Source: Paracyclopina nana
Lineage: Eukaryota > Arthropoda > Copepoda > Cyclopoida > Cyclopettidae
Length of the DNA: 64,000 nt
Direction: 5' to 3'
Assembly: GCA_019096065.1 (NCBI GenBank)
Contig: JAGUCH010000003.1
Span: 10,478,001 to 10,542,000 of the forward strand
Position 1 is the stretch's first letter, and each line of letters starts with the position of its first letter. The notes under the pieces are model-generated. The model worked only from the letters and a program-made list of their open reading frames with translations. It searched no databases and was not told the origin of the DNA. A program made the translations under genes and the position numbers. Shown here piece after piece: positions 6,201-50,317 of this stretch.

Positions 6201-9200
6201 TCGAGTTAGGTCATTTTGGGTGAGAGAGGGCCCAAAGAGGTGACCACGTGACAAGAGGATTCTTCATGTATATACGGATTAATTAGTAATGGCATTACAC
6301 ATTTAAGCAGGGAAATTTGGGAGAGTGATCAGAAGCACTAACACCATCAACATTGTGACCTCGGCCTCCGGATTGACCTCTGGAAGAATTTCTCATGTTT
6401 GCTCTTAACATATTGCCAATTTGGAAGAGACTCACTGAAGACAACCAACACTCTTGGCAAAAACCCCAAGAAGAATATGCAAAAGCAGCCAAACTGTCTC
6501 AAAACGTTGACTACTTACTCGTGAGTAGAATGGATAGCAGCTAATTGAGGCCCATACAAATTCACCACAAACCTCTGATACGTGCTTAAATCAAATAGCA
6601 AATAGGTTACCCTTGGAAAGGAGTGGAGTAAAGTAGAAGTAAAGATGGTGTTAGTGCTTTTCTGAGACCTCAATGAAAATTATCATCACCAAGAAGAATT
6701 TTGGAGGAAGAAGAGTGACCACGATGAAAAGAGTGATTTGTTACGAGAATAGTAGTAGTAATAGTACAGTGGTGCACCTCAATAAGAGAGACTCCATATA
6801 AAAAGATATGGAAACGAAGAACAACACCAGCTATTTTGTCTAGTGCTAAGTAAAAGCCAACTTACTTCTCGCGTTCCTCCATATCCTGGTGGTTAGTATC
6901 TGTGTGTGTGTAAAAAATATACAATATGAAAAATCATCACACTTTGCAAAAAAGGGCGGAGTTTTCGGAGGAAATACATCCGGAAAATCTGGATTTTTTT
7001 GTTAGAAAGCAAATTTGCTTACACTTTTCGAGTGGCTTTCGTCGTCGACAAATGAGGATGACAGCCACGATGACAATCAAAATGGCGACAACGCAAGCCG
7101 CAATCACAGCCACGATAATGATGATGTTGGCCCCGCCCATGGCCTTGAGAAGGCCAACGCCTTGGACCTGGATCTCGCATGGCACTCCGGCTCCGATGGA
7201 GTTGTTGGCCAAGCAGAAATAAGTGCCGAAGCTCGCCTCGATCGCATCCAACATGAGGACACTTTGAAGGCCGTCACTCGTGAAGTCAGACAAGGCCAGG
7301 CTGGAATTTGCAGCCTTTGACCAAGCGAAGCGCACATCTTTGGCCGGATTGGCCTTGGCCTCGCATGTCAGCATGATTTGGCCTTCGTATTCTCCCTGCG
7401 AAATGCCGCATTCTGGCTGGACTGCAATTCACACAAAGAAAATTATGTACACTCACAAAATTATATGCGCGTTCTCATATTCACGAGGCAGAGCTCTGAG
7501 AAGTTAAGCAAGGCTCTTTGGAAGTCAATAGCTCAGTAATAGTTGAGCCGATTGGATCCAAACTTTCAGAAAATTTCAGCGGGACTTTTTGCAACCAACA
7601 AAAAACCATGATCATCCGAGGCCGCTTATCAGTCATTTTTTTTTAAAAAGGCGTGTAAAATGCAAGGCTGCTTTGCTCTACAATTATAGGAGGCAAATGG
7701 TGGCCTCCAATAATCGGTCTTCATCTAGTTGAATTTCCGACAAATCTGTCCAAGTTTGGCTCCAATCAGCTCATCTATTGCTGATCTGCTAGCTTCCAAA
7801 GAGCCTTGCTTAGCTTCAACAAGCTTAGCTGGATGAATATGAGAACGCGCTCATTCTAAGTCGCATTACATAGGACATCGAATTTGGTGGCGATCCTGGA
7901 TGAGCCATGCCTGTTTTCGGCCACACACGTGTATTCTCCGGCTTGGTGTCGACCGATGCCCTTGTCGAAGAAGAGCAAATTGTCGGTGCCAACAACTTCG
8001 TTATTGAATCTCCAGACATAATTAGCTTGAGGATATGCTTCAGCAGTGCACAATATCTTCTCGGGGCTCGAGCCCTCGCGCACACTGACATGAGACTCGG
8101 ATATCTCGATATTTTCCGGGGGATCTGGAAAAAGACACACATATCGTCGTCACACATGGAGATGATCCAACCAATAATGATATTACATTCCACCCTGAAG
8201 TACGTGGTGCTGCTGACACCCTCGGCATTGCTGTGATAATCCGACATTTGCCAAGATTTGCTTTGACACGTGTAGTTAGCGTTGTCAATAATGCGGTCCA
8301 GTTTTCCGCCTGGCCACTTGTCAATATTGAAGTAGAGCGTGGAATAAATCGATTCAAAGTCGTTCTTCGCATAATCAGGCTCGCGTTCGCCATACATGAT
8401 TGTGTATCTCTCGTCGTCCTCGTTGATGGCCAGGCCATCCTTGAGCCAAATGATTTTGCACAGCGGAGAGCACTCCACCTAATTATCAAAAACTAATATG
8501 AAATAATTCGTATTGTCAGGGATATTCTATTTTACCTGGCAATCCAGGGAAAAGTTGGAAACTTCCGCCATGGCTCCAGTGTAGGGTGGCAGCCTCACTA
8601 TAAAAGTGGGCGGAGCTGGAAGCAAAAATTAGAGATCGATATATGCATATACTTTTATATTGGAAAACTTTTAGCTAGATGCACTTTTCGCAATTGTACA
8701 GCTCAAATAATGCAGGTTTCTCGCACCTATGACTTGGATGTTGATGAAATCCTGCTTTCCCTGTCCGACCTCGTTTTCGGCCACACACGAGATGTTGGCC
8801 TCGGTCTCGAGGGTCACGGGGTCGATGGTCCAGTTGAAAGAGGTGACGTCGTTGACCAAGTGACCTCCACGTTTCCAAATAAACTTGCTGGCCTCAGGCC
8901 TTCCGACCTCGTCAACACTGCAAGTGAGAGTTATGGCCTGGCCTTTCACCACCATCTCTGTGTCTTTGCTGATGAAGGCCCTCCCTGGAGGATCTGTAAG
9001 CAGATGTTTCATTTTCGAGCGGAGCGGACTGCCAACCGGAGGGAGTAAGCGAAATCAACATTTTTAGCATAAAAGGTCATTCAGAAAACTGGCAAAAGCC
9101 CTCAAATTACCAACATTAATCATTTATAAACTAATCAGTATTATAAGTTAACAAATCGCTTCTTTTGAAATAACCCAAGGCAAGATTATCTCATAAGCTT

Positions 9201-12200
9201 GTCAGGGCTTAATGTTAGAAAGTTAAGAACTGGACAACGTAGAAAAAACATGAGGCCTCCTAATGAAGGCCAGATTTCGAGGAGAGAAAAAGGTAATTAG
9301 GCGCCGGCAAACCTCCCAAGGGAAATCAGGCGGAATATACTCACAGAAAATCTCCAGCTCAGCTGGTTGCGAGAGGTCACTCCATCCGGCCTCGTTGGCG
9401 GCCTCGCACGAGTAATTGCCGTGGAACAGCTTTGAGACGTGTTCCAGCAGCAATTTGCTCGGGTCAATGTCGCACAAATCATCGCCACTTTTGTGCTGGC
9501 TCTTTTCGTTAGGGCAATCTGGCAGCTCTTTGAGCAGGTTGCCATCCATGTACCAGTTGACCCGTGTGAGCGTTTCCGGGAAGCCGGTCACGAGGTCGCA
9601 AAACAGCGTCACATTTCTCCGCTCCAACTCACTGATGGGCGACGGAGGGTCCATTCGCAGGGTGACACTCGGTTTGTCTGGGTTAAAACGGTTTATATAG
9701 TACTTGAGGACAGTGACACAGTTAGGGTTAACCAGTTCCCTTGCAAAGGCTTTTAAATACATACATAATTTTAGGGCAAACTTACAGTACACTGTGAGGA
9801 CAGCTGAGCTTTTGGAGTCGCTCACACCTATGGAGTTCTCCAGGACGCAAGTGTAAAGGCCAGCATCTTCGCGGCTGACAGATCGAATGACCAAGCTGGG
9901 CTGAGTGACGGTGGCGCCCTCATACCTCGTGCGGTTGGCAGCAACATCCAGCAGCTGACCATTGCGGTACCTAAATATAATAATAACAATATAATGTAAG
10001 CTGCAGCAGAATTTTTTCCGCAAACTTCCACCACCACGACCTCATCCAAGTTTCTGATATACTATTTGAGTTATCAAACTCGCAGCCTCAGCCTCGTTTA
10101 ACGCCTGACTTGGTAGCAAAGCAAAAGTTAGCATTATGCTCTTCAGGGCTAGGCTTTCACGAAAAAGTACTATTATATGTTGTATCTAATTACCAAAACA
10201 TGGCCTTGCTTTCAAGTAGACTCATCTGAAAAGCCTTTAGGGCCTTAGAGGCCGAAAACCGGATCAATACTTTTAGGGCCTCCTGCATGCCTAATAACCA
10301 GCAGCATGAAAACTGCATTCCAAAACTTATTCCTTAGCCTACATTATAACTGTAATGAAAATAATAATACCATCTGACTGAGGTCAACGAGGTCGGGTTG
10401 GCCTCATAGGTGCAGTAAATCATGACCTCACGAGTCTCATTGGTGGTGATATTATAGGGTGACACATTGACCACGGGAGGATCTGGAAGTTGAGGTTATT
10501 ACAATTACATATTTATGATATAAAACAAGGTTAACTCACATAGAACCGCGAGGTTGACCGAGGCTCGTTGAGGTTCCTCTCTGTAGTGATCAAGCACTTG
10601 ATTGTTAGCCTCACATGTGATCGATTCGCCATTTTCGAAGCGAGACGCGATGAAGGAGATGCGAGATTGGGTCTCATAAGTGTTGTCATCCTGCATAAAT
10701 TAACATAGTTTATATAACACCTATTAAGGTACCTTTGGCATGCAGGAAAGGGCAGGTTTTTCTTCCACGTGAAAGAAGAAAGTCAGCTATGTAGTATATT
10801 TTGACATAACTTTGACACACTCGTATCATATCAAGTGTGTTCGTGAAAAAGTTTGCCAAAAAAGAAGAAGAAGAAGAAGGAGATCTCTTTTGGTGCCAGC
10901 TCTTGAGATTTCCTTGACATGCAGCCGAATTTATGTGGACAGGTCACAACACACAATCAATTAGATATATATACCTGCTTGATAGTGAACTCAACCGGAA
11001 GTTTCTGCAACAGCGTAGCATTTTGGCAGAAATTGCAATTTGTGTAGTAGTAGAAAGGCAGGCAGCAGAGATAATAAGAGACTTTTTGTTGTAATTACAA
11101 TGTCTGGTGGGGTGTGAGTGCTTTTTTTAAGGTTCATATAATAAAAGCCGATATAGGAAGGAAGCAAATCAAGCTTGCACACGGATTACTTTTAAATGAC
11201 TCTTTACCTGCAAAGCAACTTGACCGGCGGGCTGCTCTGAAAACGGCCTTGACCCATTGAACCACGTGATGACAGCGGCTGGTCGGGCACCTTGCGTTCT
11301 ACAGAGTAAACTGACGACTGACCCATCTTCAGCTGGAGAATCAGCACCAATCACTTCAGTTCGATATGGACGTACTGCAACGAAAAAAGAGAACTTCTGA
11401 TCCAATCTCCAAAATGGGCCTCGCTCCATAGACCATACAAAGAAAGGCAGTTTTTTTGGGGGAAAAAGGGAATATTTTATATGCAAAAGAGCCAACTTTT
11501 GACTTACGATTGACATCAACTTGGACGGAAGTTGAAAGAGGCTGGTCTATGGCCTCGTTCTCGGCCTGACAGCTGAATTGAGATCCGAGGTCACCACGAG
11601 ATAACTTTATGCGAACCTCATTTCTGCCAGTGCCTGTGCCATCCTCTTCCTCAAAGGAGCTCGCTTTACCTGCACAGAAAATCGACCTATGCTTTATAAG
11701 AACTGAGAAGGAAAACGTGATGACATACCAGAAATGACACTAGAGCCGTTGTACCAAGTGACCCTCGGAATGGGTTTGCCTCCTCCGGACTCGCACACGA
11801 GCCGTAATTCGTGACCTTCATTGAAAGGCCCAATGATCTTGGTCGAGATGTCCCTGCCGTCCGAAGTTGACACATTCAGATACTTGGGCTCGGCTGAAAA
11901 AAAATAAAACACCTTAGAAATGGCAGCGCGCTTCTCCGCACAAGCTGATAATCAAAACAGATGAAATGGAAACATCATTACAAAATATAACGATGCACTT
12001 CTTCTAGAGACTTCAACCCTTGCTTACATTGTTGCCATAGGTCACTGCAAAGGTAGCAATTTGCGCGTCTGACTGGTTAATAGAGGCCATGCGAACAACT
12101 GCCAAATGAGAATGAGCAGCATGAGAACCTACTCGACCTTTTACTTGTTGTTGCCATTAAATGTCTCGCATTAGAAACTCGAGGAAAAGTGGCGGGAAGT

Positions 12201-15200
12201 GGTCTCGTTTCCGTAAGTGAATACGCCAAGAACATTTCACATTTGACTTGAAAAATCTGTGATTCCGCGAAAGATTTGTTTATGTTTACAATTCGGCAGC
12301 AGAGCTTCCAGAAGGTTGTCATCGTAAAGCTTAATTAATTTGGCGGAATTCTAACACTTTTGGCAAAAAACAGGACTTACCTAACGTGGTCAATTTGACT
12401 AGTTGGACAACGGGGCAATCCTTGGTGATGTCCAAAAATGTGATTTCGCACTTGTATTCGCCCTCGTCGCTGGTTTTGAGCCCTTCGATTTGCAGCCTCG
12501 TGGTCGCATTGTTGGCCTCAAAAATGAGCTGCCCTCTGTCGACCAATTCCCCTTCGGCCTTGGCAAAGTTTGCTATTGGGCTGTAGACGTAGACCCTGCG
12601 ATTCTCCTTGTACCACTTGATTGAGTGAAAATCGCCGCACTCAGCCTGGTTAATCAAGCACGGAAGATTTACGGTGGCGCCAGCCTTCGATTTGACCTCC
12701 TCTCGCGTAGCACCTATAATTGATTAAAGTTAGATAATAAGCACCAAACAAAGTTTTAAGATTCAATAATAATTCGAGCAACAACACCTGGGAGTAATTT
12801 ATGAGGATATTTCTTTAGTTTATGCCATATCATCATCAAAATGATGATGGCCAAGCTGTGTCACATCCTATATTTTATACAATATATATAAAAGACGGGA
12901 ACTCGGTGCACATAGTGGAATTGGGTCATTTCTGGCTACTTGGCCCCTTTTCCTTGCCAAAATTCGGCCAATTTTTGCAGCAGCTGAACGAAGGAAGGAG
13001 ATTTATATGCAATGATATTTGAACGTGGAACCACTCTGACTTTTTTAGTTGCCTGAAAAAATGCCCCAAGACACGAAAGAAGAGCCCATCCTCAAATCTG
13101 AGGCCCAATCGAGTTTTGTCGCAATAAAAGTTGGCTTTTGTGCAATTGTCATTTTCGTTTCGCGCACGAGCGCACAAAACAATCATCAACAAGGAGAGTA
13201 TCTTCAGCCATATAACCATGGGGCTTTTGGCAACGCGAGGGCTCTCTCACTGCAGATTTGGCACCCATTTCTCCATAATAATGACACATTAAGCGAGCGC
13301 AGTGAAACCTTTATTATGAGAACACGTAAAAACTGAAAACAGAAGACAGAGGTTGCGTGATTTGTTTACACTCACTAATGTTCCGCAACTAGTGTGACTG
13401 TTCCACCTTTTTTACCATGTATGTGACTGTGGACGTCTATTTTTTCCCATATAGGACCAATGAATACGCGGGGAGTGTCGACCAAATGGAGCCTAAAGCT
13501 CATTACACACACATTACAAATGCATTGGTCCTGTATCTTACATCATCATCACCCCCGAACTATTCTAGGTATTTGATGACATCTCAATTGCTCGAGAAAT
13601 TGGAGGACCAAAGGGGTTGCTATGGAATGCTTAAGAGGGGGACAAAAGTGTGTACTAAGGCTATATGGGGAGGGAATACATAGCATGAAATTATTGGCTC
13701 AATCTTTTTTACAACTATTAAAGAAGCTCCAAATGAAATTCTCATGCTACTTTTACTACTTTCAAATGATGCTGAAAATTTGCATTCTTGCTGCTGGAGA
13801 AAAGAGGCAATCATACATATAAGGACTGAAAATGTGCTTATTTGGTATTCAAGTGAGCTGCTGACAGCTCAGCACACTGGAAAAATCGTGTTTCTATTCG
13901 TAAAACGTAACACTACTTCCACAGCAGCTCTTCTTGTCACTCATCCTCGAAATATTACTCACCAAGTAATGTATTCATGAAACTGTAATTTGCTGCTGCT
14001 GGTGTAAGGGTTACTGCTGAAGGCAAAAAAGCTAGCTAGCACTTTTCCCTTTGAGGACCAAAGATGTACTTCAGTAGTACATATAAGAGCCTTTCACTAT
14101 ACTAGATATTGTATTTTACAGGTGTAGCTTACACTTCCTGTAGCCAAAAAATCAAGCCCAAATACTTGCAATTCGTATTAGTGAATGTAGGGTCCATTCT
14201 TGGCATGTAAGGTAAGCTATGCTATGTAGTACACTCATTCTTCTTTAGGCTATTGTCCAAAATAGAAAGCAAGGCTTGTGTCAACACTCTTCAAGTCCCA
14301 TGGGAGACGGATCTTTGATACTGCTGGAAGTACAGCTCGATCAATCATAGTACAAGTCTTGCAAAACTGCATCTAGAAGTTGTGTAACCAACAAAAGTCT
14401 CTTCTTCTCAAACTTGTCACACAAATCTCCCAATGGCAATTTCCATGAGTACTTTATGCCTGTATTGAGACACAGGAGCCATACATTCTTTTGTGCCAAG
14501 ATTTGCGAGCCACACACAAGAATATTACAAGGAAATTTGATCCGTCACCTGACTGTCCAAGCGAAATAGAAAAAAAACCGAGAGAGAGAAGATGAAATGA
14601 GAAAGAAAGCTTTATGGTGGCACTGAGATAGCTGCACAGTTCTGGTGGTATAAAAAAGGGACTTTCAGCTGGCTTGAGAGTGAGCTAGGCCAGCTCTGGA
14701 ATACAAATCAAGTTAGCTCCTCATGGTCATTCGTATTCCACACTCCTTGTGTAAGCACAGTAGTCAAGTGCAGCTCTATACAGCTTTTAGGGGGAAGAGG
14801 CAGCTAGAAGAAGTAATGACCAGATCCCAGGCTGAAAAGTTGCTTGGCCAAACTTTTCTGTCATATACAAACTAAATTCAAAGTGGGAAAGCTTTTGGGC
14901 ACCCAGATTATACTTGCAATGACACCCAACCTTTCAAAACAAATCACTTGGCATTCAGGAAAATGGAGCCTCTTCAGAATGCAGATGGGATCAATCTATT
15001 TTCTTTGCATTTGAGCCTGAGTTTGGTTTTGGCACAGATGATGGGCCTTAAAACCATTTCTTTGCCTTTGTCAACACACAACTACTTCTATAAGTATAAA
15101 GTAGCTGGTTTGGATCCAAAGTTGGGTATATATTGCGGTTGACAACTTGTTTTCCTCTAGGCTTCATCTCATATCTGATTGACACTTCCATATCTATTGT

Positions 15201-18200: not shown

Positions 18201-21200
18201 ATATCTTGTGAGAGAAGAGCATTGATGTTATGGTGGAGTTTATTGCTTAGGGACTTGCTTTGGGTCATTGAGTCTGATCTGTAAAAAATTGACCGAAATG
18301 GAAATAGCTGATTAATTTGATTAATTTTCTGAACGTTTTTGTTTTTATTTCATGCTTGTCATCATGTGAATTAACCTATGCCATTTTTCTCGGATCAGAC
18401 TCTATGGCACTCAAGAAATGTATTCTGTCATATTTTTTATTAGCTATGTGGCAGTATAGATGCAATTAACGTCATCTTCTCAAATGTTCCCACCACAATA
18501 TCATTATTGCACTGTATTGTTGACAAATCTTAATGAATCGCGAATTCGTTCCAAGCACCGAATTTTCGGACTTTTAATTGATTTTAATTTTCTGCTAGCT
18601 TCGATATCTGATGTTCGCTGTGGTGGGAAAATTTGTACTAAAGACATGGAAGCTGAAAAAAGGCCATCTTGATGGTGGTGTATTTAAGCTATTCAAGGCT
18701 AATGAGATCAAGGAGCCGGAAAAGAAGCCGGAGAAATGTGCAAAAAAAGGCCAGAGAAAGCTGCTGGAAATTATCAATATTTTCGCTAAAAAATCAAACA
18801 CAAAATTCAACAGCCTTTTGTCAACCCTGTGAAAACGGCATTTACATATCTTCACCTGCCAAATGTTTGTTTTTGGCTGGGTAGGAGAAAAATGCATTTG
18901 CAAGCTAAAAAGCCGCCAATGATGGACTCATTTTTTGCTTTGTTCGAGACTGCGATGTAAAAAGGAGACATGGCTTCATTTCAATCATGCAAAATAGTCG
19001 CGGCCTTGCATTGGGCGAGTAGGCCCCCTGGTGGCGAACAAACAAATATCATACATCTTGTGGTGCAATGAAAAGCCATGTTTGTGCGTGCAACGATGAG
19101 CGATCGCGCGCTGTGCTCATCTTTTAATGCGAGATCACGAAAAAAGTAAGCTACTTTGTGTCACATATCACTTGCCGTTCAAATGCACAGTGGGCGAATT
19201 CCAAAATTGACAGAAAATTGCTTTTTCGCTGCTGTAAACATTTTTAATGGGCGCAATCTGATTTGTAAACGAATTGCGGCGTTAGTTGACGAAGAGCAGG
19301 AAAAAAGCAGCAAATGAGCTAATTATTCACACTTTTTTCCCCATGGAGTCAAGGCCAAGCACGTGCAATTGTAGGCAGTTACGAGCTCGCTATTAATGGG
19401 GGTGGCATCCAATTAATCATAAAGGTTGCCTGAAAATCAATGTCACGACTCCTCGACAGATTGTGAGGCGCAAATTGTGGGCGGCTCGATTTGACGAAAA
19501 AAAACCCCAAAAAAATGACACGCGAATGAGGGCAATTTTAAAAACGGCCAATTTGGCTAGAAAATAGTTTTCCGAGCGTTTTTACGCGCTCGCGGCCCAG
19601 TGTGCTATGTTGCCACTGCTATATACAACTTGGCCATTATATTGAAAGATAGAGATCTCCATAACACATGCTTTTCTTATATATAGGACATCCCACGCAT
19701 TTTCGATATATATTATGACCATGATTGAGGAGCTGCAGCCTCAAGGCTCCATTCATCAAATCAATCTACAAGAGTAGCAATAAATGTTGCTCTGCGTACA
19801 AATGGGTCTAGTCAGTGCTTAGCTATGACAAATTGGCAACTTTTTTATGCCGTTTCGCCTTGAAAGTCGAAAGTCGTTTAGGCCCTATTGAAAGTTCCTC
19901 GATCGTCATTATTGGTAGTACAATTCATATTCCAATCGCGCGATATTCGTGATTTGGCGCTGGGCGTGAAAACGAAATTGCCACAATGGGAAGTCAAAGT
20001 CACTTTTGCGCTCATATGGCACAAAGTGCAGAAACGTGTGGCCTCTCCTGCAAAAACTCACTTTCTATCATTTATCTCGGTGTATACTACATTCAATGAT
20101 ATTTTACTGCTTCAAAACAAAATATGCTACTTTAGATTGCTGCTGGAAATGAAATGCTTGCTTGCCCTTGCGGAAAGCGTGACGTTTCGCTGGTTTTTCT
20201 TAACTTGCAGCAAAGCAGCTCTTTACATTTATCCATTTATGCGATCTGCGAAATTAAAAGAAAACAGTCGACAAATTATATTGCTTTTGCATGCATGCAA
20301 ACAAGCTTTGTTTTCGTTGCATTGACGCGACACCTAGCGGACTAATTTTTTCTTAAAAAGGCAATATTAATAGCCATGGTGTGCTCAATAGGAAATCAAG
20401 CGAGAAACCTTTGAAAAAATACTTTCACTTGATTTCTTATCATGAGCTCATTATTTTTGTCAATGCAGGAAATGGATAGAACGTGTTTCATACACTTTTG
20501 CATGTACTATGAAAAAAGAATGGACTAATCTCGTCAAAGGAGGAGAAAATCACGCGCTTTAAAAAACGTAACAATAAAAACAAGAGATGCTCACTGTGGA
20601 ACAGATGAGCGCCTAAAAAACCCAATTTCAGCAGAAATTCCTTTATCTGGACCTGCAGATATGGCATAAAATGAAAAAGCATGACTGTGACATTAAAAAG
20701 TTGTACATTTTCCCGCTGTGGTCCCTTGTGGCATAATAATGGCGCTTCAGGATTATGAATCCCATAAACATCATGTTACACAAGTACACACACAGAGGGT
20801 TGAGGTCACGATCCCCACTACCTATTTTCGTGGACTTTTTGAAAGTGTCGATGTGAGATTCTCGTCAGACTCAAGGTTAAGATCTTAAATTTTTTCGCCA
20901 GGATACGTACAAACTGTACCTAGGAAACCTAGCCATTTTGGCGAGAATTGGACTTCGAGATTGGCTATGCAAAGAGGTGTGGTTCTCGCAAGATTTCTTG
21001 CGAGAAACTACGTCATCTCGCTGGACGGACCGGCACTCGCTTCTTGGTTCTCATTGGGATTCTTACATGAAAAAATGAGATCCTGACCTGCTCAATAGAA
21101 GCTAGCCGCTCCATATGGAAAATGAGAACTGCACATATGAAAAAAACAGTGTTTTTTTATTTTGGACTCAAATAAAAGGCCTATTGGCCTTGTCAATCAT

Positions 21201-24200
21201 ATTAAATTTATCTCATGCTAATTATGTAGTCTAAATGATAATTTTGAACTTAATTCTTCGGGGCTGCAGAGGAGCCATCAGCGCCATCAGATGAGTCCGT
21301 CAAGTATCTTCGCTCAGGGATTTCTCCAACGTTTTGATGAGAAGTGCTTGGAGTGACGTTGGAAGAGCTGGGGATGGGGCTTTTCTCCTTGGCGGAAGCT
21401 TTCCTCTGCTGGAATAAAGGATGAGTTAGGTTACATTTCATGTAAGTAAAAGGAATAATTGACAAAATCTTAATGAGGTTCTTATAAGGCTTTGAGGACT
21501 CACTGGGGGTTTTTTGGACTTATTGGCCACTTGGGCATCCTTCACGCTCCCATCTTCAGAAGACAAGTAGTCCTCTTCATTCCTGGCCGATGCTGCTGAG
21601 GATGATGTCTGCAAAATAAGAGCAATTGCAATGTAATTCAAAATAATAAAATATTGTGTATTCATACCTCGCTCGTTTCTTCTTCCTCAAGTTCCTCTTC
21701 CTGAGCCATGTTCGCCAAGTTCTTGCGAGCACGCTTTGCTTGGCTGGCAACACCAGTGAAGGGCCAGCATTGCTTGATGGCAGAGGCATTTCGCTTACGG
21801 GAGACTTGCTCTTCATCAGGAATGACCACTTCTGGGAGTTGAGCATTAGCATCTGCCGAGAACTCTTTGACTAGTTCACGAATGTCAGTTATTTCGTCCA
21901 AGACTTCCCTGTACAGGCGAGGCAACTGGAACGATGAAGTGATGTAAAAGTGATGTCCATATAAACTGACATGATCAACTTATTACCTCAGGCACAAATT
22001 GAAGCTTGTCAAAAGACAAATTCCTGTAGTCTTGGTCAAACAAGTGTGCCGCAACGCAAATGAGGCGGAGCATTTCCTTTTCATCAAGGATCTCGTAAGT
22101 ACTTTTTGAAGTCATGCTATCAAAAATGTGCTCCCTGGGAGTCACTTGCGGCAAGACATTGCTTGTGCTGGCGGCCTCTGCTTTGTAGCCATTCTTGATC
22201 TCCTTCCTCGTCTTGACTTTCTCAATGTGTTGCTCACGAGAAGGAACGACAGCTGTCTTAGGCAAAGTGTGTCTGTTGTGCATGTAGAATTGGAAATCCA
22301 TGTCAACGACTGCTTCAACTGCTTCATCTACATTGGCAGTATTGTTGACAGCGCAAGTAAAGAAATTGCCTCTGTCAGTTCCAAACGTGGTTGAGCAAGG
22401 CAGCCTTTGCTCAGACAAATGAGCAGCCTCAGTTCCTGGCAAGAGCTTCAGCATTTCCTCCACCATCGGAATGAGGTAGTTCTCATTCATTGCGTGAATA
22501 CCGGGAGGCAAAGGTCGCTTGTTGAACTGGAGCATCTTTGTCGAACTGAAATTATGTTTAATATTATGGGCTAAGTTCTTGCAAGAGTTAGGCTAGCTTA
22601 CTTCGGATTTTTCCCGTAAATCAAGTGGGCACGAGCGAGGGGAGTGAACAGAGTCATCACTATCGACTTTGCCATTGTGACATTCATGTTGGCCAGGGGC
22701 ATCTTCCTCAAGTAGGGTGCAATGAAGGCACAGATTTGTTCCTGAAAATGAAAAGAATGAAATGTCAAATATCAATTTGTTTCGGGGGGTTATGTCTCGT
22801 GAGAAAAGTACCTGGATGAAATGGCATGAAAAATAGATGTCACAAGCCTTGCCCATGAAGTTAAAAGCCACCGGTCGGAGCAGAATCATGCGACCTCGGC
22901 CACGAATGTCGGCTTTTCCAAAGAAGTTCTTCTGAGGAGAAACTGCAGCCACTTGCTCGGACACATTGCTCATTCTCTTGTCGATGCCTTTCGCGACTTT
23001 CTTCAAGTCCTGCAAGTGAATAAAGCATCATGAAATGTTATCTTACAAGAACCTGATCAACAATCATACATGCACATGCTGAAACTTGTTGTCCAGTTTC
23101 TTCTTAAGGTTGTTGTTGGAATTGTTGATGGCATCAATTATGTCCGTCTTGTCCTTCTCAGCATCAACTCGGATGCGTGCATACAGTCGCTGCAGTTGAT
23201 CGTCAAAATACTCCTTGGTAATGAAAGTGCCAGCACCAAGTTCCTGCAAGCAACGTGGTGCATAAGAAAGGTCGATCATTATCTTACAAGAAATGTTTGC
23301 ATCTTACCAAGATCACTTGATCTGCAGCAGGAGTTGCTGCTACTGATGGCAAAGACTCACGTCTCCCGGCAACAAACGTGAAATTGGGATCCTCCATTGC
23401 CGTGGTCGCTTCATCAGCAGATGAATTATTGTTGCCGTCTGGTCCAGAGTGCTCTCCAGATGTTGCTGTCAATGGCTGAGCAAACGTGGTGTTGGTCTCG
23501 TAAGACACAGATTTCGGGACGGGGGCAACTTGCAATTCGTCAAGATTGACCAATGATGTTTGCATTGCATCATCTCTGCTGCCCTGTTGTTGCGCAGATT
23601 GTGCTGGCATCGGCTGGGGCTGGTGAACCTTTGAAGGTGGTGGCGGAGGTCTAATAGGGTCACGAGTTATCGGTGTCATTTCCTCCTGTGATGATGATTG
23701 CGACGCAATAGAGGGTGCTCTTGATGGCACTTGTGATGGAGCTCTAAAATCCTCCGAGGGAGCTGCAGACTGCTCAGACGGAGCTCGTGATTGCCTTTCA
23801 GGAACTCGTGAGACCTCAGTTGGCGGTTGTGAGTGCTCAGAGGGCGCTCGGGAATGCTCCTCAGACGGAGCTCTGGAGACCTCAGACGGAGCTCTGGAGA
23901 CCTCAGACGGAGCTCTGGAGACCTCAGACGGAGCTCTGGACCGCTCAGACGGAGCTCGTTGCTCAATTGGAGCCTGCGAAGCCTCTGATGGGGCCCTTGA
24001 GCGCTCAGATGGGGCTCTGGAGGAGACAGATGCAGTCCGAGACTTGGATCTCCTGAGAGGAAGGTCAGCTTCCTTTGCCTTCAGCCGTTGAGAAGCCCTA
24101 GTTGCCGAAATGGCTGTCCGCACTTCTTCGTCCATGGAGGAACGATCGTCGGTGAGGTACTCCTTTGTGTTAGGGTTTAGCATAGCCTTTCTAGTCCTAA

Positions 24201-27200
24201 TTGTCCAAGGACGAAAGAGGAATGACTTCGTCTTCTTGTCTCGCTTCTCGTACATTACATCGGCCATGACTTTTTCGAACCATTCGTGCCGTATATTGGC
24301 CCAGCTTCTTATGAGTTCATCCTCATCCATATTGGCGACATCGGCATTCAGCTCCTTAACTGCTGCATCAACTCGAAATTGCTCGACTCCTAAAATTTGC
24401 ATTAAATGTGGGCATGAGAAAATGCAATTTCAAAATTCGTATCGATTACCTTTCTCGACTCTTGCAAACACTCGAATTTTCCTTAGGATTCCTCCAAAAA
24501 GAAGTGGAACCATTATTCCACGGTTCTCGCCAAGCCTTTTCAGAATCGGGAACGAGACGGCCTCAGTGAGTGGGATTCCATCGTTCACGGTGATATCCAC
24601 GGGCAGAAAGGAGAACACCGGTTCTTCGTCAAGGCAGGCGACGATAATTCGGTCGTAACTGATCGCAGATTTGCCAGGATTTTGCGACATTTTCCAAACG
24701 TTAATTTAGCGCGTCTGTGTGAATGGCGGTTATTTTAACCTGTGACCGTTTGACGATTTATTTTGAATTTCGCAATATTATTTTAATAAGCTGACTGTCA
24801 GATGGCTGTTAAGATCTCATGAAAATCTCGCAAGAATGTCGCATGTTTACATAATAAAAAAAAAAACAGCGGCAAAGACTGAGCAAGCTGAGACACGAAG
24901 CCAATTTGCGCAGCTGACCAAAATTGACACAAAGCCGTGAGATTCGCACATTTCAGCGAAATTTGGTGAGAAATCTCAGTCATCCTCCTTAAAATTCTCA
25001 ACTTTAACGCTGATGAATGCCACTGTTGAACACTCGACAATTTCGTCTCGCAAGTTACACACCAATTTTATGAGAACGTAAGTTGCTCTTTCATTTGCTT
25101 CCATCAATTGGTAAAGGCTTTTATTGATTACTTATTTCCTCATAGCATTTTTGCCATGCCGCCAAAAAAGAGACCTCGATCTCACTGGCACGATGCCGAG
25201 CAGCGCCGAACAAACCGCATGTTGGAGAAGTTGTCATTGAGCGTTGACAACATCAAGTCAAGTATTAGGACCGAAGCGTTAAAGATTGACAAGATCTTTA
25301 GACGAGATAGTAGCAAGTGAGTTCATTTTCATTTGAAATTGTCAATCACACTGTAATGCGTCAATTAAAACACAGGTTTTTCAGTGACGAGGATTTCGCC
25401 CCGATTCATGGACTGTACCAGCAAGAAGGACAGTTGACTGCCGTCAAAACTGAAATCGATGCTTTGATCCAAGCTGGATTCCTGACCAGCGATTCGGAGG
25501 ACTCAATTGCTCCTGTCGGTCTTGCGAGAGCTTCGCAAAGAATAGATGACACAACAGAAGAGGACGCAAGCGATGCCAATGTCAACACGTTTTATTTCGA
25601 CGTCAACGAGGATCCTGATGGCATCCCGGACCTGAGCACATCAACAAGTGAGGAGCCACAAGTTTCTCGCGAGGATGCAAGACGTCATAGAAAAATGATT
25701 TGCAATGTCGAGGGCTCACCATTGTCAGAGAATCCGGAAAGGGAGGGCTATTTGTTCGAAGGTTCATATTACCTTGACGCTGATTTTACGAAGATGCGCA
25801 TTGTCGACGATTATGGCTTCACTTCATGCGAAGAAGCTAATTCGCATCACTCTGACGACTCGCAAGAACCTGAGGGTAACAATGATGCCCCCGAAGCCAA
25901 CAACGAAGAGGTGGAAGTTGATGTAGTCAACGTCAGCTCAGGTGACGATGATGAAATAATTCAAGTTCCTCCTGTCCCTCCGGAGCCTGTAATTGAAGAT
26001 TTCGAAATTCCACTGTTTGAGGATAACGTGGAGGCCGACGACAAGAACGAGTTCATCAAGAATATGCCATTAACTTACAAGAACTTTCAGAGAATGGTAG
26101 CAAAAGAGGAAAGGCTTCCAACTCAGGCTGAGCGGAACAAAATGTTCTTTGAAATATTTGAAATTGTGTGCACCCGTAAATTTGTCACAGAGGATGGCAA
26201 AGAGGTCTTGTTCAACCTTTTTAGAGCTGAAATGGAGGAGCGTGGTCTCAGCTCTTACGACATTTGCAAGCTGCGTCTTGAGGGAAGCCATCCCAAGGTA
26301 ATGATGGAGTACGAGTTTAAGAACAATGACACAGGTGAGATTGTGAGGCATATCGGCGATAAGTATCCACGCAAACAATTTCCTCGCAAGAACTTTACCA
26401 AAATTTCTGAGTACGCATACATGAACATAAGCGAAGTTTGGAGCACAGTACGAGATCAGCACGTGAGCATTGAAAATTTCGTTCCTGGAAGGCACCTTGT
26501 CTTTTATATGGATGGCGTTCCTCTTTCGCATTCAGGCCCAGACCAGTTAAATGTAGTTGGCATGAAAATCCCCCCGTGTCGGCAAATCTACACTGTAGCA
26601 ATGCATGTCTATAAGAAGGAAAGTGGCCTTACACCTAACAAGATTGTCGAGAAGCTGATCCAGCAATGTAATGATGCGAATATGTCAATAAGGCGTTTCA
26701 TCGGCGATGCTCCTGTCCGCGCAAAGCTGCGTGGGCTGAAGGGACATGCTGGCACATATAGTTGCGAGAGGTGTGAAGCCAAAGGTGTGAGATATCAAAA
26801 TCGCACAATTTTCCCTCACGAGACGAAATCAGCACCCGCAAGAAGTAACACTTGGTGGAAGGACATTGTTCAGCAAATTGCCACAAGTGACATTCGCAAC
26901 TTCACCGAAGATGTGCTGAAAGGGGTGAATGCAGCCACACCACTAGCAATGCTTGATGGGTTCAATCTTATGACTGACTTTGTGTACGAGCCAATGCATA
27001 ATCTCTCAGGAGTTATCAAGCAACTCATGAAAGCTTTGCTCAGTGATCCAGGACCGAGACTGACTGCACAACAACTTCGCTTAATGACTAAGTTTGATGA
27101 TCGTTGGTGCCGCATTAATTTGCCCAGGGAGTTTAACCGACGTGCTAGGTCAATAATGGATAACTTTGTCAACTATAAATCTCAAGAGTTTATGGCCATT

Positions 27201-30200
27201 GCTGTAGCTGGTCTTTTTGCGTTGGGCGAATCATTTGACCAGCCACTATATGCAGGCCAAGTTAGAACTTGGTATTACGTCTGCTTCTGCATTAGAATGG
27301 CCTTGTTCGACAACGGGTTTTGGCAAGAACTTGATGAGAAGTACAATGCACGTCGACTTCATTGCTACACTTATGAGCTGATCGAGACAAACATGGGCCT
27401 AATTAATTGTACCTGGAATGTGCACACATTTTTTCACCTATTCGAAGTTCGAGCCATTGCAAGACTGCCAACTCTGAGCACCCTAATGTTTGAGGGCAAC
27501 TTCAGCTTCATGAAAAAGGTACTGAAGCCAAACACTACTAGTTTCCCCAAACAGGTCTTGCAAAATATGTTCCAGAACTTTGTGTTCGGTCATGAATGTG
27601 AGAACATTGTCCGCTTCAGCAACGTAACGTTCTCCAGAATTGATGACACAATTGTGTACACCTCGGATAAACAATTCTTCAAGATTGACAAGATATTGGT
27701 GGCAACGTATGAGTGCAGACGCTACAACACTGAAAGAGCTGTCATTGACCTCACTCCTAACTTGGACTGGCGAGATGTTGGCGTCGTCAAACTAGTCGAT
27801 CTCCCAAATGATGTCCACATTGTCGAAAGAAGAAAAGCCATCGGGAAGGGAGTAATTGATGGTCAATACTTAATTGCTGTACCATTTGACACGTTCTTTA
27901 CTTAATTGACATGTCCATTTCATGCCACTTAACAGGAAAATTTTCCCTGGATATGTTTCATTTAATAATTGACTACTTATGTTTATGCAAGAGTCCAATC
28001 TAAGTCTGATACAAATAATAATTGATAAAGAACGAAATAAATTTGTCCAGAATGAACGAATTCAAAGAAATTAATGCATTCCTAATTGATTCATTAAGGA
28101 ACAAGAGCTTCACTTTGAAAATTCGGCATTGCAAATTGTAATCGCTATAAAGTACGTACTTCGCAGTTTTCGATGGGCCAATTTCGCAGTTCACATAAGA
28201 TTGTAAATGATGAAACGCATCTTTTCAATGAGAACTGAACACAGCATAGGCTTTATTGATCTCACAAGAAAATGTTCTATTCCACATGCTTGAACTGCAA
28301 AGGAATCTTATCTTCGCTTATTTAAGATTTCCAAATGAAAACTTGAAGGTACTTTCAAATGGCTGGAATGATCTTGCGAGATATCAACTACAGACACCGT
28401 CAGGTTCTCTATGGGAATCTGAATTTACGAGAACTCAGAAGTGTCTGACGAAAACTCAACCTAGACAAAAAAAAAAAAAAGGTAGTGGGGATCTGCTTTG
28501 GCGAAAAAAAGCCTCTTGGCTCGAGCTAAAATTGAGCCACGCAGCCAACGAAAATGGAGATTCATTAGGCAGCTCGCAATAGCAGCAAAACAAAAGTTTT
28601 CCTTTTTCCAATCGCAATCACAGACAGTCGAGTTTTTTTCTCCTCTTTTGCTTAACTTGGCACACAGAGATTGGCAAAAGTTCGCCTTGCTTATCGCGCG
28701 TGGCTCTGGCTCGCGCGCGCGCGCGCGCGTGAGAGAAGATGCCAATTTGGGTGTAATTTATTGCAGCTTGCACACAAAATTCCGCTGCTGCTGCTGCAAG
28801 TTACTGCAAGTTACTGCCATTTTTGCAGATTTGCAGTGCTGTGCTCGGGCCACTTTTCCATGCATTGCTCCCTTTTCATAAAGCAAAACTGGCTTTTAAG
28901 GCCTATTTGCTATTGTTGGACCTGCTGAGCATTCTTCAAACTTTCTGGACTTTTTGAGGCTTTTTGAACCTACCACAGTGGGGTCATCTCTATGCGAAAA
29001 GTGGCGTTTAGCGGCAAAGTGAAATATTCAAGTACTTAATGCCGTAGGCCTTTCAAACAGAGATTTAAGGCCTAGTTTTCAAATTTTTTGGCTTGAATTG
29101 ATGATTTTTCATAGAAAAGTGCATTGTAAACGGTTTTGTCAGCTATTACTGAGTTTGTTATTGTTTTGAAAATTCAAAAAGGGCTGCTGAAGTCGGCAAA
29201 ATGGGCTCAGTGAAAACTGTGATATCTCAAAATGGCGCCAAAATGCGCAAATAAAACTTTGTCACAATGATTTCAGGTAATGAATTGATTGTTTCATGCA
29301 AAAATTGTTGAGAACTTTTGAGGGCTAACGAGCAAATTAATATTTGAAAATGATCAAAAATAGCTTAACTTCAGGATCCCCTTTTCGCGGAAAATTTGAG
29401 CGAATCGCAAATTTCCGTTAATAGTTATCATAATTTGTAATGTAACCAACAATTAATTTTGATGCTACAATCATGATTGAATTGTTTTCGGCCTCGAAAT
29501 TTCCAATTTTAAACTGCCGTGTTTTGAGAGAGTTTGAATGATGCTGCCATTTCGCGAGATTTCCGAACGCCACTTTTTGCAATGGGATGACCCCACTGTG
29601 AGCTACTGGGCATTTTGCCCTACTGAGTGTTTGGAGCTATTTGGACCTACAAAATCTGCCGTCGTTGAACAACTGAAATCAAGGGGCTTACTTGGCTCAC
29701 TCTGATTGGCTTGCTTTAAAAACGGGTTAATTTAGGCCTAAAGTAAACTAAAGTTGAGCCCACGAAGCTTTTAAAAATGGTTGTAATTATCAAACAATAT
29801 GGTAAAAAGTATTCTTTTTGTCTAATAGTCTCAGGCTACTTCATGCGCACTATTTGTTTTCAAGATCAAGATGATCTATAATGTAAGGTGACCTCTTTTC
29901 ACAGCTGATCACATCTGACTATGCTATGGAAGGGCTTCTGACGAAAAAAGTAGAGCTCTATGAATCATAAGTTTTATGAAAAAGCCGTCAGATGATAGAA
30001 AACGCCTTAATTAAGCGATTTTTGAAGTAAAAATTCCGAATCTGGTAAAGCTGATTAACATGCTTCCCTTCTCCTTCTAGAGCACTAAAAATTGGCGCCA
30101 TAATCTAAATTTGAATTTCCCGGTTTTTCATTGAAGCGAGCACCACTGCACAAATGACGAAAGAACTAAAATAAGTTTGGTGAATCAATTTGAATACTTC

Positions 30201-48504: not shown

Positions 48505-50317
48505 TTAGCCAGGCAGAAGGCCTGAGTGGTCCCGCCCCAGGGTGGTGACGTCCTCGCCTGGAGGGCCGCTCGTCGTCACTGTCGCCCCTGGGAAGAGGAT
48601 CCGGTCTTGCCTCAGATTGGTCACCATTCTCCATGTCATCTTCTCCATCAAGAATGCCGTGTGCCAAACCGCCAACAGCATCCACCACCCTAAGCCACGC
48701 CAGCGGTATAAGACCACCATGCGCAGCAGAGCTCCGAGGATCAGTCTCAGGAGGCCCACCGTAATGAGGAATCCTGTGAAGTACAAGTAGTACTTCCCTG
48801 CCAAGCTGAGGAAGGGGATGATGGCACTTCCCACATGGTCGACCATCTGATCAATGTCTCCCTGAGACCAGAAGGTGGTGGAGCGGCTGCCAGTGATGAG
48901 CGAGTTGTGAAGCACGTTGCTGGTGATCATGTTGACGACAGCCCCCCTGGCTGCTGAAGAGGTGGAGATAGAGGATGTGGTTGGCCTGCCGCTCGGCTGA
49001 GAAACACCTCCACCCAGTCCACGGCTGACGTCGTATTGATGATTACGAGGAGCAGCATCCAACAAGGGGTTGAGCTGGGCATTTGATGGGCGTGATGGAG
49101 TTGCATGGGACAATGCTGGGCCGGTCCGTCAGGATGAACAACAGCAGGTCCGCGAAGCGAGTCTCGCGGTTCACCAATACCGCGATCTCTTGGGTGCAGT
49201 TGTTGATGGACCAGGTGACTGCCTGCACCGGGTAGCACGAGGTCACATTGGCCACTGCTCCGGCCCGGGTGACGAGGTGACCTGGCCCATGACTGTTCAG
49301 GGTAGCATACGTTGACGACCCCGAGGCAATGCTCTGCAACTTATAACATATCAATTCCTGCAGAAACTTTGAACCGGTCCTGGATGTGCAATGCATGTTG
49401 AGGGTGAACGAGTGCCAGTTGGGTTTGGATATTGGCCCCGTCCATGTCTTCCTGGTGCAGATACTTGGCCTGAAGGGGCCCCATCTCCAGGTTCGATCAA
49501 CAGCATCACGAAGTCTCTCAACTGCGTGGTGAATAGCTTCTGCTGGCACATTGACTGCGCGCCCTTGAGGGCAAATCCGGCAAATCGGGACTCCTCCTCA
49601 GGGGCTAGCAGGAGGAGGTCGCCAAGGTGCCCAGTTCCTCCCAGCGAGCTGGTGGCATTTCGATGGGGGAAGAGCACCGCAGGTCCCTGGTAGACTTCAC
49701 TCAGTTGATCCTCACAGCGTGGAGACTTGCGTTGGGCCACACGATCATGCCCTCGGCGTCGTCCTGCACGATGAGGTCCTGGAAGTTCGCGGTCAGGTGG
49801 TTGGAGAACACCACCCGCCCGTTAGCCGTGTTCAACTTCCCGTAGATGGGCTCGACCAAGGCGTGGATCGTGGTGGTCTCATTTGATTTGTAGAAGGTCA
49901 CGCCCCCGCTGGTGAAGGTAGTCGCGGTGCACTTGTGGTCCTTGTCCAAGACTCCCTTGGAGAAGTATGAGAGCAACGTCGGGTTGTTCAGCGCCACCGC
50001 TACCTTCTTGTTCTCCACAATCAGGTAGTGCTTTTCGGTGGCCTCTTGGTAAGCTTGTGGAGTCACCAAGTAGGGCTTGTTGACGTCCGTCATCTGACTG
50101 CCGTAACTGATGCTCTCTCGTACCCACACCTAGTCACAAGCTCCGGCTGACTTAGATTGATGGCCTCGTGGATTGCATCGGGGTGTGCGCAGTCGTAGGT
50201 TGTGAACAAGGCCGCTTTAGCCTCAGGCTTATACAGGTCTGCGCTTCTACCTGCCAATGATTTGACCTTGGAGGATGGCTTCCAGTGCCACCTCATTGAG
50301 GAGAACCCAGTAGCCAT
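48505..50317 (-). pseudogene. env-like glycoprotein region, frameshifted
   Basis: Located after integrase, where env sits in env-bearing LTR elements. Segments in several frames (50090-50317, 49701-50129, 49043-49549, 48505-49113) contain spaced cysteines, N-glycosylation sequons and a C-terminal hydrophobic span with a basic border, like an anchored surface glycoprotein. The overall pattern reminds me of chuvirus-type glycoproteins that arthropod retroelements have captured. This is a resemblance judged by eye, not an alignment. The coding sequence is broken by several frameshifts. Confidence 0.5.

Follow-up and report, generated by a model that had tools for sequence, protein, structure and literature searches.

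The 64,000-nucleotide stretch of the Paracyclopina nana genome analysed here (contig JAGUCH010000003.1, positions 10,478,001 to 10,542,000; hereafter 'the window') contains a 7,678-bp element at window positions 20813-28490, in which a transposase gene and a second, 'partner' gene are divergently arranged. Based on its sequence features, we assign this element to the CMC (CACTA-Mirage-Chapaev) superfamily as a CACTA/Mirage-type DNA transposon. We consider it reasonably probable that this is a cut-and-paste transposon requiring two element-encoded proteins, with the partner serving as an obligate cofactor. A preliminary description of the window had reported a DNA transposon that encodes a DDE transposase with readable family motifs and, as an intact second gene, a 971-aa partner in nine exons. 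Both parts are borne out, the first by terminal inverted repeats (TIRs), a target-site duplication (TSD), a D-D-E signature and a second copy of the element, and the second by GT-AG exons that lack internal stop codons and are also open in that second copy. Feature coordinates are collected in Table 1.

To place the boundaries of the transposon, it was compared with L002, another full-length copy, and with copies that carry neither gene. The first bases are CCCC (20813) and the last are GGGG (28490). The inverted ends at 20810-20828 and 28475-28493 are one (I5; 19 nt, 95%) of 57 such pairs in the region, and their length alone is not distinctive, but these ends were found again at other copies (I5 alone was checked for recurrence). 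The perfect TIR is 11 bp, CCCCACTACCT, followed by a single mismatch and then TTTT; the GAT and ATC outside the TIRs are flank, and the AT within them is a 2-bp TSD. The inverted ends of the preliminary description are real and do recur elsewhere, but their 13-bp extent was over-called by three flanking bases.

The sequence CCCCACTACC was found again at L002, L009, L011 and L012, and CCCCACTACG in a relative, E37. The ends of the relatives E37, E40 and E14 were derived from near-identical copy pairs, which were used in place of a TIR-first search whose returned pairs all look like chance. E37 (contig C6, ~7.9 kb) has ends CCCCACTACG...CGTAGTGGGG and the TSD TA, E40 (contig C3, ~7.6 kb) is bounded by ends of the CCCCACAAA type and by the TSD AG, and E14 has one located end, beginning CCCGACTAGG. 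The TIRs read start with CCCCAC or CCCGAC, and a 2-bp TSD is present in all seven elements read at both ends (AT, TT, TT, TG, CA, TA and AG). No empty insertion site was found in this genome, where the flanks are single-copy.

The genome examined comprises 92 Mb in 10 contigs, and the immunoglobulin-domain exons in the window were the ground for treating it as that of an animal. L002 resides on another contig (C2:16317332-16325000), is bounded by the TSD TT and is 99.3% identical to the window element, with 38 mismatches and 5 gap openings across 7,682 aligned bases. Both of its genes are open, and its transposase carries four residue differences, such that the whole-element comparison proposed in the preliminary description did recover another copy carrying both genes. 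Substitutions between the two copies number 18 in 2,904 aligned bases of the partner, 10 in 2,691 of the transposase and 12 in 2,070 of the remainder, and because they are so few, the copies look recent. Gene-less copies sharing both window-element ends are L011 (1.24 kb, TSD TG), L012 (1.49 kb, CA) and L009 (6.9 kb, TT). Since the 1.24- and 1.49-kb copies retain both ends and 2-bp TSDs, they were probably mobilised in trans. The intactness of both genes in two copies, together with their constraint within the family, would also be expected of two domesticated host genes that merely resemble a transposon. This explanation is contradicted by the TIRs, the 2-bp TSDs, the gene-less copies and the presence of L002, at 99.3% identity, in an unrelated location, and we regard it as extremely improbable.

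Some loci with such transposon ends have additional features. The 6.9-kb copy (L009, 1146-8089) has an interior packed with the words CTATGAGA and ATGAGACA (30 each), which form a large satellite-like insert between transposon ends. L010 has two occurrences of this transposon end, at 1866 and 8877 (7 kb apart), with identical flanks and followed at both sites by nearly identical open frames starting IMPKQSPKKKGK; this is a duplicated block, perhaps with a retroelement gag. Just beyond the partner-side end of E14 (L014, ~6462-7478) lies a 339-aa open frame that we take to resemble Crypton-type tyrosine recombinases.

The transposase gene is open, lies on the forward strand and encodes 896 amino acids in two exons. 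Its signature, D(64)D-C(2)C-H(3)H-E, is constant in all 17 sequences of an alignment that includes the window element and in which L019/L020 and L026/L027 are near-identical row pairs. The presence of C(2)C and H(3-4)H motifs between the second D and the E is common to EnSpm/CACTA, Mirage, Chapaev and Transib (PMC12730594). The window element accordingly has two of the features by which CMC members are recognised, namely a D-D-E triad combined with these two motifs, and TIRs flanked by a TSD within 2-5 bp. A genome search with transposase exon 2 yielded at least 55 matches, of which 51 are free of internal stops (the best 54 of 242 candidates were scored), and a second transposase query yielded at least 70 (the best 69 of 238). 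Among the matches listed, these relatives share ~30-60% identity with the query sequences.

Within Pfam, the transposase comes closest to DUF1258 (PF06869), which is the Mirage family (PMC3985635). This family was matched by two of the 17 transposases (best E 0.0056), with L027 scoring 16.6 bits against a cut-off of 33.1. Transposase_21 (PF02992) was matched by none of the 17 at E ≤ 1. Genome profile searches for these two families gave nothing, but their controls gave nothing either. Transposase residues 400-800 had no relative at E 0.001 in a collection of 5.8 billion proteins, a result that says little about other animals, and the transposase alignment, the one query used there, had no match among viral contigs.

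The partner gene is encoded on the reverse strand by nine GT-AG exons and yields 971 amino acids with no internal stop. The 465 bp between the two start codons presumably form a shared bidirectional promoter. In order, the partner comprises an N-terminal domain (residues 1-165), a linker (166-485) with 38% S/T/P/Q, a basic KKxDNKF stretch that appears to have coiled-coil character, a C-terminal domain ~300 residues long and a tail in which basic residues cluster. The linker holds the SRAPSE array noted in the preliminary description. This array is real, with nine RAPSE/RVPSE matches in the window element, though none of six other loci whose sequences were checked, a near-identical two among them, contains it; it is a subfamily-specific linker and no defining feature of the partner. 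A phase-2 intron after exon 5 and a phase-0 intron after exon 6 were modelled in all eight elements compared, with phases taken from exon lengths and the aligner guided by the window protein. A partner relative at C1:11289666-11290655 (G000), unlike the exon-rich window gene, matches residues 468-801 without introns in an open frame of 631 aa, possibly through intron loss.

The partner was previously described as unrecognised, and database searches agree. Its N- and C-terminal domains have no Pfam match above cut-off, and no kelch, PHD or enzyme domain was found above cut-off in Pfam. The PDB holds no match for alignments A1 and A2, and thus none for the C-terminal domain. Partner residues 470-870 and a six-sequence partner alignment (A3) had no relative at E 0.001 in the 5.8-billion-protein collection, although this lack of matches says little about the presence of the partner in other animals. 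A likeness of the C-terminal domain to BEN/DUF4806 was considered and rejected when no profile match was obtained in seven members. Genome profile searches for BEN/DUF4806 gave nothing, yet their controls gave nothing too, and these are silent rather than negative. The partner family numbers 132 loci or more in the genome examined, and its fold is not a recognised one.

These partner loci were gathered with the window partner and two more distant partner queries, and the two transposase searches were merged to give 73 listed transposase loci, the best-scoring ones only. A partner-like match lies upstream on the opposite strand, and hence divergently, at 69 of the 73, at distances of 986-4,082 bp. 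Random placement of partner loci (1,000 rounds) gave a mean of 0.50 and a maximum of 5 such pairings. Other orientations within 9 kb are confined to four transposase loci with a convergent partner match and one with a same-orientation match. Paired partners include ones that are merely ~30% alike. Even the transposase at C2:2577057, among the most diverged at 34% identity to that of the window, is accompanied by a partner (L048) in which both the N- and C-terminal domains are retained, the former recognised by eye from YD...VFCRIEKG, as is the phase-2 intron. This near-universal pairing suggests that transposase and partner work together.

The window partner query alone gave 77 exon matches at 35 loci, 30 of which have a divergent transposase among those listed. 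A damaged-looking transposase adjoins L016, L042 and L044, and none lies within 4.1 kb of L043 or L045. The occurrence of the partner as a solitary host gene, named in the preliminary description as an observation that would count against it, is thus not the pattern at 33 of these 35 closest loci (some with damaged-looking transposases), leaving two to which it could apply. Because partner-like genes adjoin same-family transposases genome-wide, the earlier suggestion of a captured host gene is not supported, with 57 partner loci unread.

Selection and co-divergence were evaluated with eight elements, using the partner C-terminal domain and transposase residues 269-896. Pairwise identities span 41-85% for the partner domain and 37-82% for the transposase, with the partner more identical in all 28 pairs. 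The partner is conserved at least as well as the transposase. The two distance matrices are strongly correlated (Mantel r 0.95, permutation p 1e-4). All pairs have reached saturation in synonymous differences, so that no exact dN/dS is obtainable, but not in nonsynonymous ones; even in the closest pair, E25/E31, synonymous sites are saturated in both genes, with dN at 0.11 for the partner and 0.12 for the transposase. Saturation confined to synonymous sites therefore indicates strong purifying selection on both genes. The preliminary description had offered selection or very recent activity as reasons for an intact partner; constraint across lineages that are 37-85% identical upholds the former, and recent activity alone is insufficient.

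These data also bear on whether the partner might be a host gene captured once, long ago, and carried as a passenger without a role for the element. Its nine exons, its lack of recognised outside relatives and the 57 unread partner loci, any of which could hide a host copy, would be in keeping with such an origin. However, a passenger would decay, while the constraint on the partner matches that on the transposase and its introns are conserved in eight elements. We consider a passenger very unlikely.

The best reading appears to be a two-protein system functionally like TNPA/TNPD of plant CACTA elements, with a cofactor that would be unrelated to TNPA and unusually well conserved. This agrees with the preliminary description, which suggested that the partner could be the animal equivalent of the second protein found in CACTA elements, and that option is the best supported. 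In En/Spm, TNPD acts as the transposase and TNPA as a protein that binds subterminal repeats, and neither is dispensable (PMC2613891, PMC1636069). By analogy with this pair, we infer that the partner is a synaptic cofactor. The D-D-E site of the transposase, built around C(2)C and H(3)H, would cut and join the CCCCAC... ends to leave 2-bp TSDs. The partner would be expressed divergently from the same region as the transposase and, with its conserved N-terminal domain, variable low-complexity linker, coiled-coil-like stretch and C-terminal domain, would most probably assemble with the transposase and/or subterminal DNA into a synaptic complex, as TNPA does for TNPD. Short copies with terminal regions only would be substrates in trans. 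Roles for the partner in transposition, oligomerisation and DNA contact, and the requirement for it, are all proposed from this analogy.

Several observations weigh against an obligate cofactor. A full-length open partner was modelled only in the window element and L002, with N- or C-terminal parts elsewhere. No partner is among the matches listed for four of the 73 transposase loci, and for 63 of the 132 partner loci, the best-scoring transposases listed include no neighbour. Six of these 63 were read: four adjoin a damaged-looking transposase (L013, L016, L042 and L044) and L043 and L045 have none in the range given above. The partner has no DNA-binding domain above cut-off in Pfam, the single sub-threshold match being to Myb_DNA-bind_7 (E 0.16). 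The structure model for partner exon 6 has a predicted confidence score (pLDDT) of 36 and is unusable, and the single-sequence model of the transposase core (pLDDT 33) is too low for an RNase H-like fold to be read. Moreover, conservation of the partner C-terminal domain above that of the transposase differs from plant TNPA-type proteins, which show little similarity (PMC2613891). Finally, the candidate subterminal motif TGAGAACCTGACA is weak. It was found post hoc, and held-out 700-bp stretches from 12 loci carry 9 sites, where shuffled sequences average 2.6 (at most 6 in 60 shuffles), with 1 of 200 permuted motifs equalling its count; eight sites also occur in stretches 800-1500 bp out, so no terminal preference is seen.

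A second word was tried and set aside. The 9-mer CTCGCAAGA occurs eight times in the window element (e.g. 20985, 20996 and 28372), in coding and non-coding sequence, and none occurs in 40 kb of other window sequence. Its seven separate places are above the maximum of 5 in 40 simulations. In five other elements, no 9-mer rises above simulation, and one other 8-mer, CAAGAAGA in E38, exceeds its simulations. As an element-wide word, CTCGCAAGA is weak and was not used.

The partner might instead act outside the transposition reaction, as an element-encoded counter-silencing factor that keeps the element expressed, of which VANC of VANDAL elements is an example. Such a factor would likewise be under selection and paired with the transposase, and transposons of several superfamilies carry genes of this kind, such as fungal TET/JBP (PMC12730594). 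However, TET/JBP genes move between superfamilies (PMC12730594), whereas the partner co-diverges with one transposase family, has no enzyme domain above cut-off, and holds the same place and orientation at nearly all listed transposase loci. We judge this role unlikely. The partner could also be primarily a repressor or copy-number regulator, with any cofactor role secondary, much as Spm TNPA, known for suppressor activity in maize, also represses its active promoter (PMC1636069). The divergent gene pair may share one promoter region, which would suit such control, but a pure repressor is expected to be lost often in spreading copies, and the partner has been kept at 69 of the 73 loci. This makes a repressor distinctly unlikely as the main function.

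With the obligate cofactor as the preferred reading, the system can be placed among known ones. The element resembles CMC members in the order D..D, C(2)C, H(3)H, E and in its short TIR and TSD (PMC12730594). However, most CMC termini are 5'-CA..TG-3' (PMC12730594), while those found here are 5'-CC..GG-3', and no Transposase_21 match was obtained. Animal TRC elements (SmTRC1, Aedes, Tribolium) are alike in their CCC-starting TIRs, 2-bp TSD and transposase CXXC (PMC1636069); CCC-starting TIRs with 2-bp TSDs are found in the window element, L002, E37, E40, L009, L011 and L012. TRC elements have a single transposase open reading frame with alternatively spliced products, and the second frame of one clone shares most residues with another product (PMC1636069). 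The accessible text describes no separate divergent second gene for TRC (PMC1636069), whereas one is present here, and the 17 members of the window family lack a match to Transposase_21, a domain of the TRC group.

Plant CACTA elements, including maize En/Spm (TNPD plus TNPA or ORF2), likewise encode two proteins, the second of which supports excision and transposition (PMC4158355, PMC2613891). They differ in having CACTA-starting TIRs and a 3-bp TSD, compared with CCCCAC and 2 bp here. Both Spm proteins are spliced from one transcription unit (PMC1636069) rather than encoded by two divergent genes, and plant second proteins have little mutual similarity (PMC2613891), whereas the partner is conserved family-wide. 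PIF/Harbinger elements (transposase plus ORF1) also need two element-encoded proteins for mobilisation (PMC2836001), but they form another superfamily, whose Nuwa families have a 3-bp TSD and a Myb/SANT second protein (PMC12730594), whereas the TSD here is 2 bp and the partner has no above-threshold Myb match. Open-licence literature, as searched without subscription papers and Repbase, describes no separate conserved second gene for animal CACTA or Mirage elements. Repbase may hold related entries, and with that reservation, what appears to be new here is a separate conserved second gene in an animal CACTA-like element.

In RAG1/RAG2 and ProtoRAG, too, a gene for a catalytic protein is joined in a single element by one for a cofactor. 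RAG1 has C(2)C and H(3-4)H like this group (PMC12730594), and the partner is not a RAG2 relative by the kelch and PHD tests made. A bolder and doubtful, though possible, proposal is that the window family is a distinct CMC lineage with a two-subunit transposase, in which a catalytic chain and a dedicated second chain, at least as conserved, were brought together independently of TNPA and RAG2. If true, this lineage would be a further natural case of the RAG1/RAG2 catalytic-chain-plus-cofactor design in this broad transposase group. The system touches on the reason for a second protein in CACTA-type elements and on whether the requirement extends to animals. Within a single genome there are dozens of transposase-partner pairs that diverged independently of one another; in many the transposase frame is open, several have 99%-identical, recent-looking copies, and short copies could serve as substrates.

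Table 1. Coordinates of the transposon and its genes within the window.
Feature	Positions	Strand	Basis
Whole transposon	20813..28490	.	comparison with L002 and gene-less copies
TSD AT, left copy	20811..20812	.	2-bp duplication at both ends
Left TIR CCCCACTACCT	20813..20823	+	terminal comparison; recurrence
Partner exon 9 (stop codon)	21250..21408	-	gene model
Partner exon 8	21504..21608	-	gene model
Partner exon 7	21668..21925	-	gene model
Partner exon 6 (conserved C-terminal domain)	21987..22545	-	gene model
Partner exon 5 (conserved C-terminal domain, FTPLARAHLIYGK)	22602..22741	-	gene model
Partner exon 4 (conserved C-terminal domain)	22812..23009	-	gene model
Partner exon 3 (coiled-coil-like LKKKLDNKF, judged by eye)	23070..23243	-	gene model
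Partner exon 2 (rest of N-terminal domain, STPQ-rich linker with SRAPSE array)	23308..24389	-	gene model
Partner exon 1 (start codon; residues 1-80 of the N-terminal domain)	24450..24690	-	gene model
Gap between divergent start codons, 465 bp	24691..25155	.	gene models
Transposase exon 1	25156..25316	+	gene model
Transposase exon 2 (catalytic domain, stop codon)	25376..27905	+	gene model; alignment
Catalytic D433	26511..26513	+	assigned by motif; invariant 17/17
Catalytic D498	26706..26708	+	assigned by motif; invariant 17/17
C(2)C motif C517-C520	26763..26774	+	invariant 17/17
H(3)H motif H737-H741	27423..27437	+	invariant 17/17
Catalytic E760	27492..27494	+	assigned by motif; invariant 17/17
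Right TIR AGGTAGTGGGG	28480..28490	-	terminal comparison
TSD AT, right copy	28491..28492	.	matches left AT

Elsewhere in the window, a reverse-strand frame at 49704-50129 has a weak match to viral fusion glycoprotein PF24664 (E 3.4e-5, below cut-off). This frame sits in a stretch of ~48-57 kb rich in overlapping open frames, which is perhaps an envelope-carrying retroelement. Immunoglobulin-domain exons of a host gene lie within 6940-12723 on the reverse strand (three of the frames scanned), and a separate reverse-strand frame at 747-1673 matches DUF268 (E 2.1e-8).

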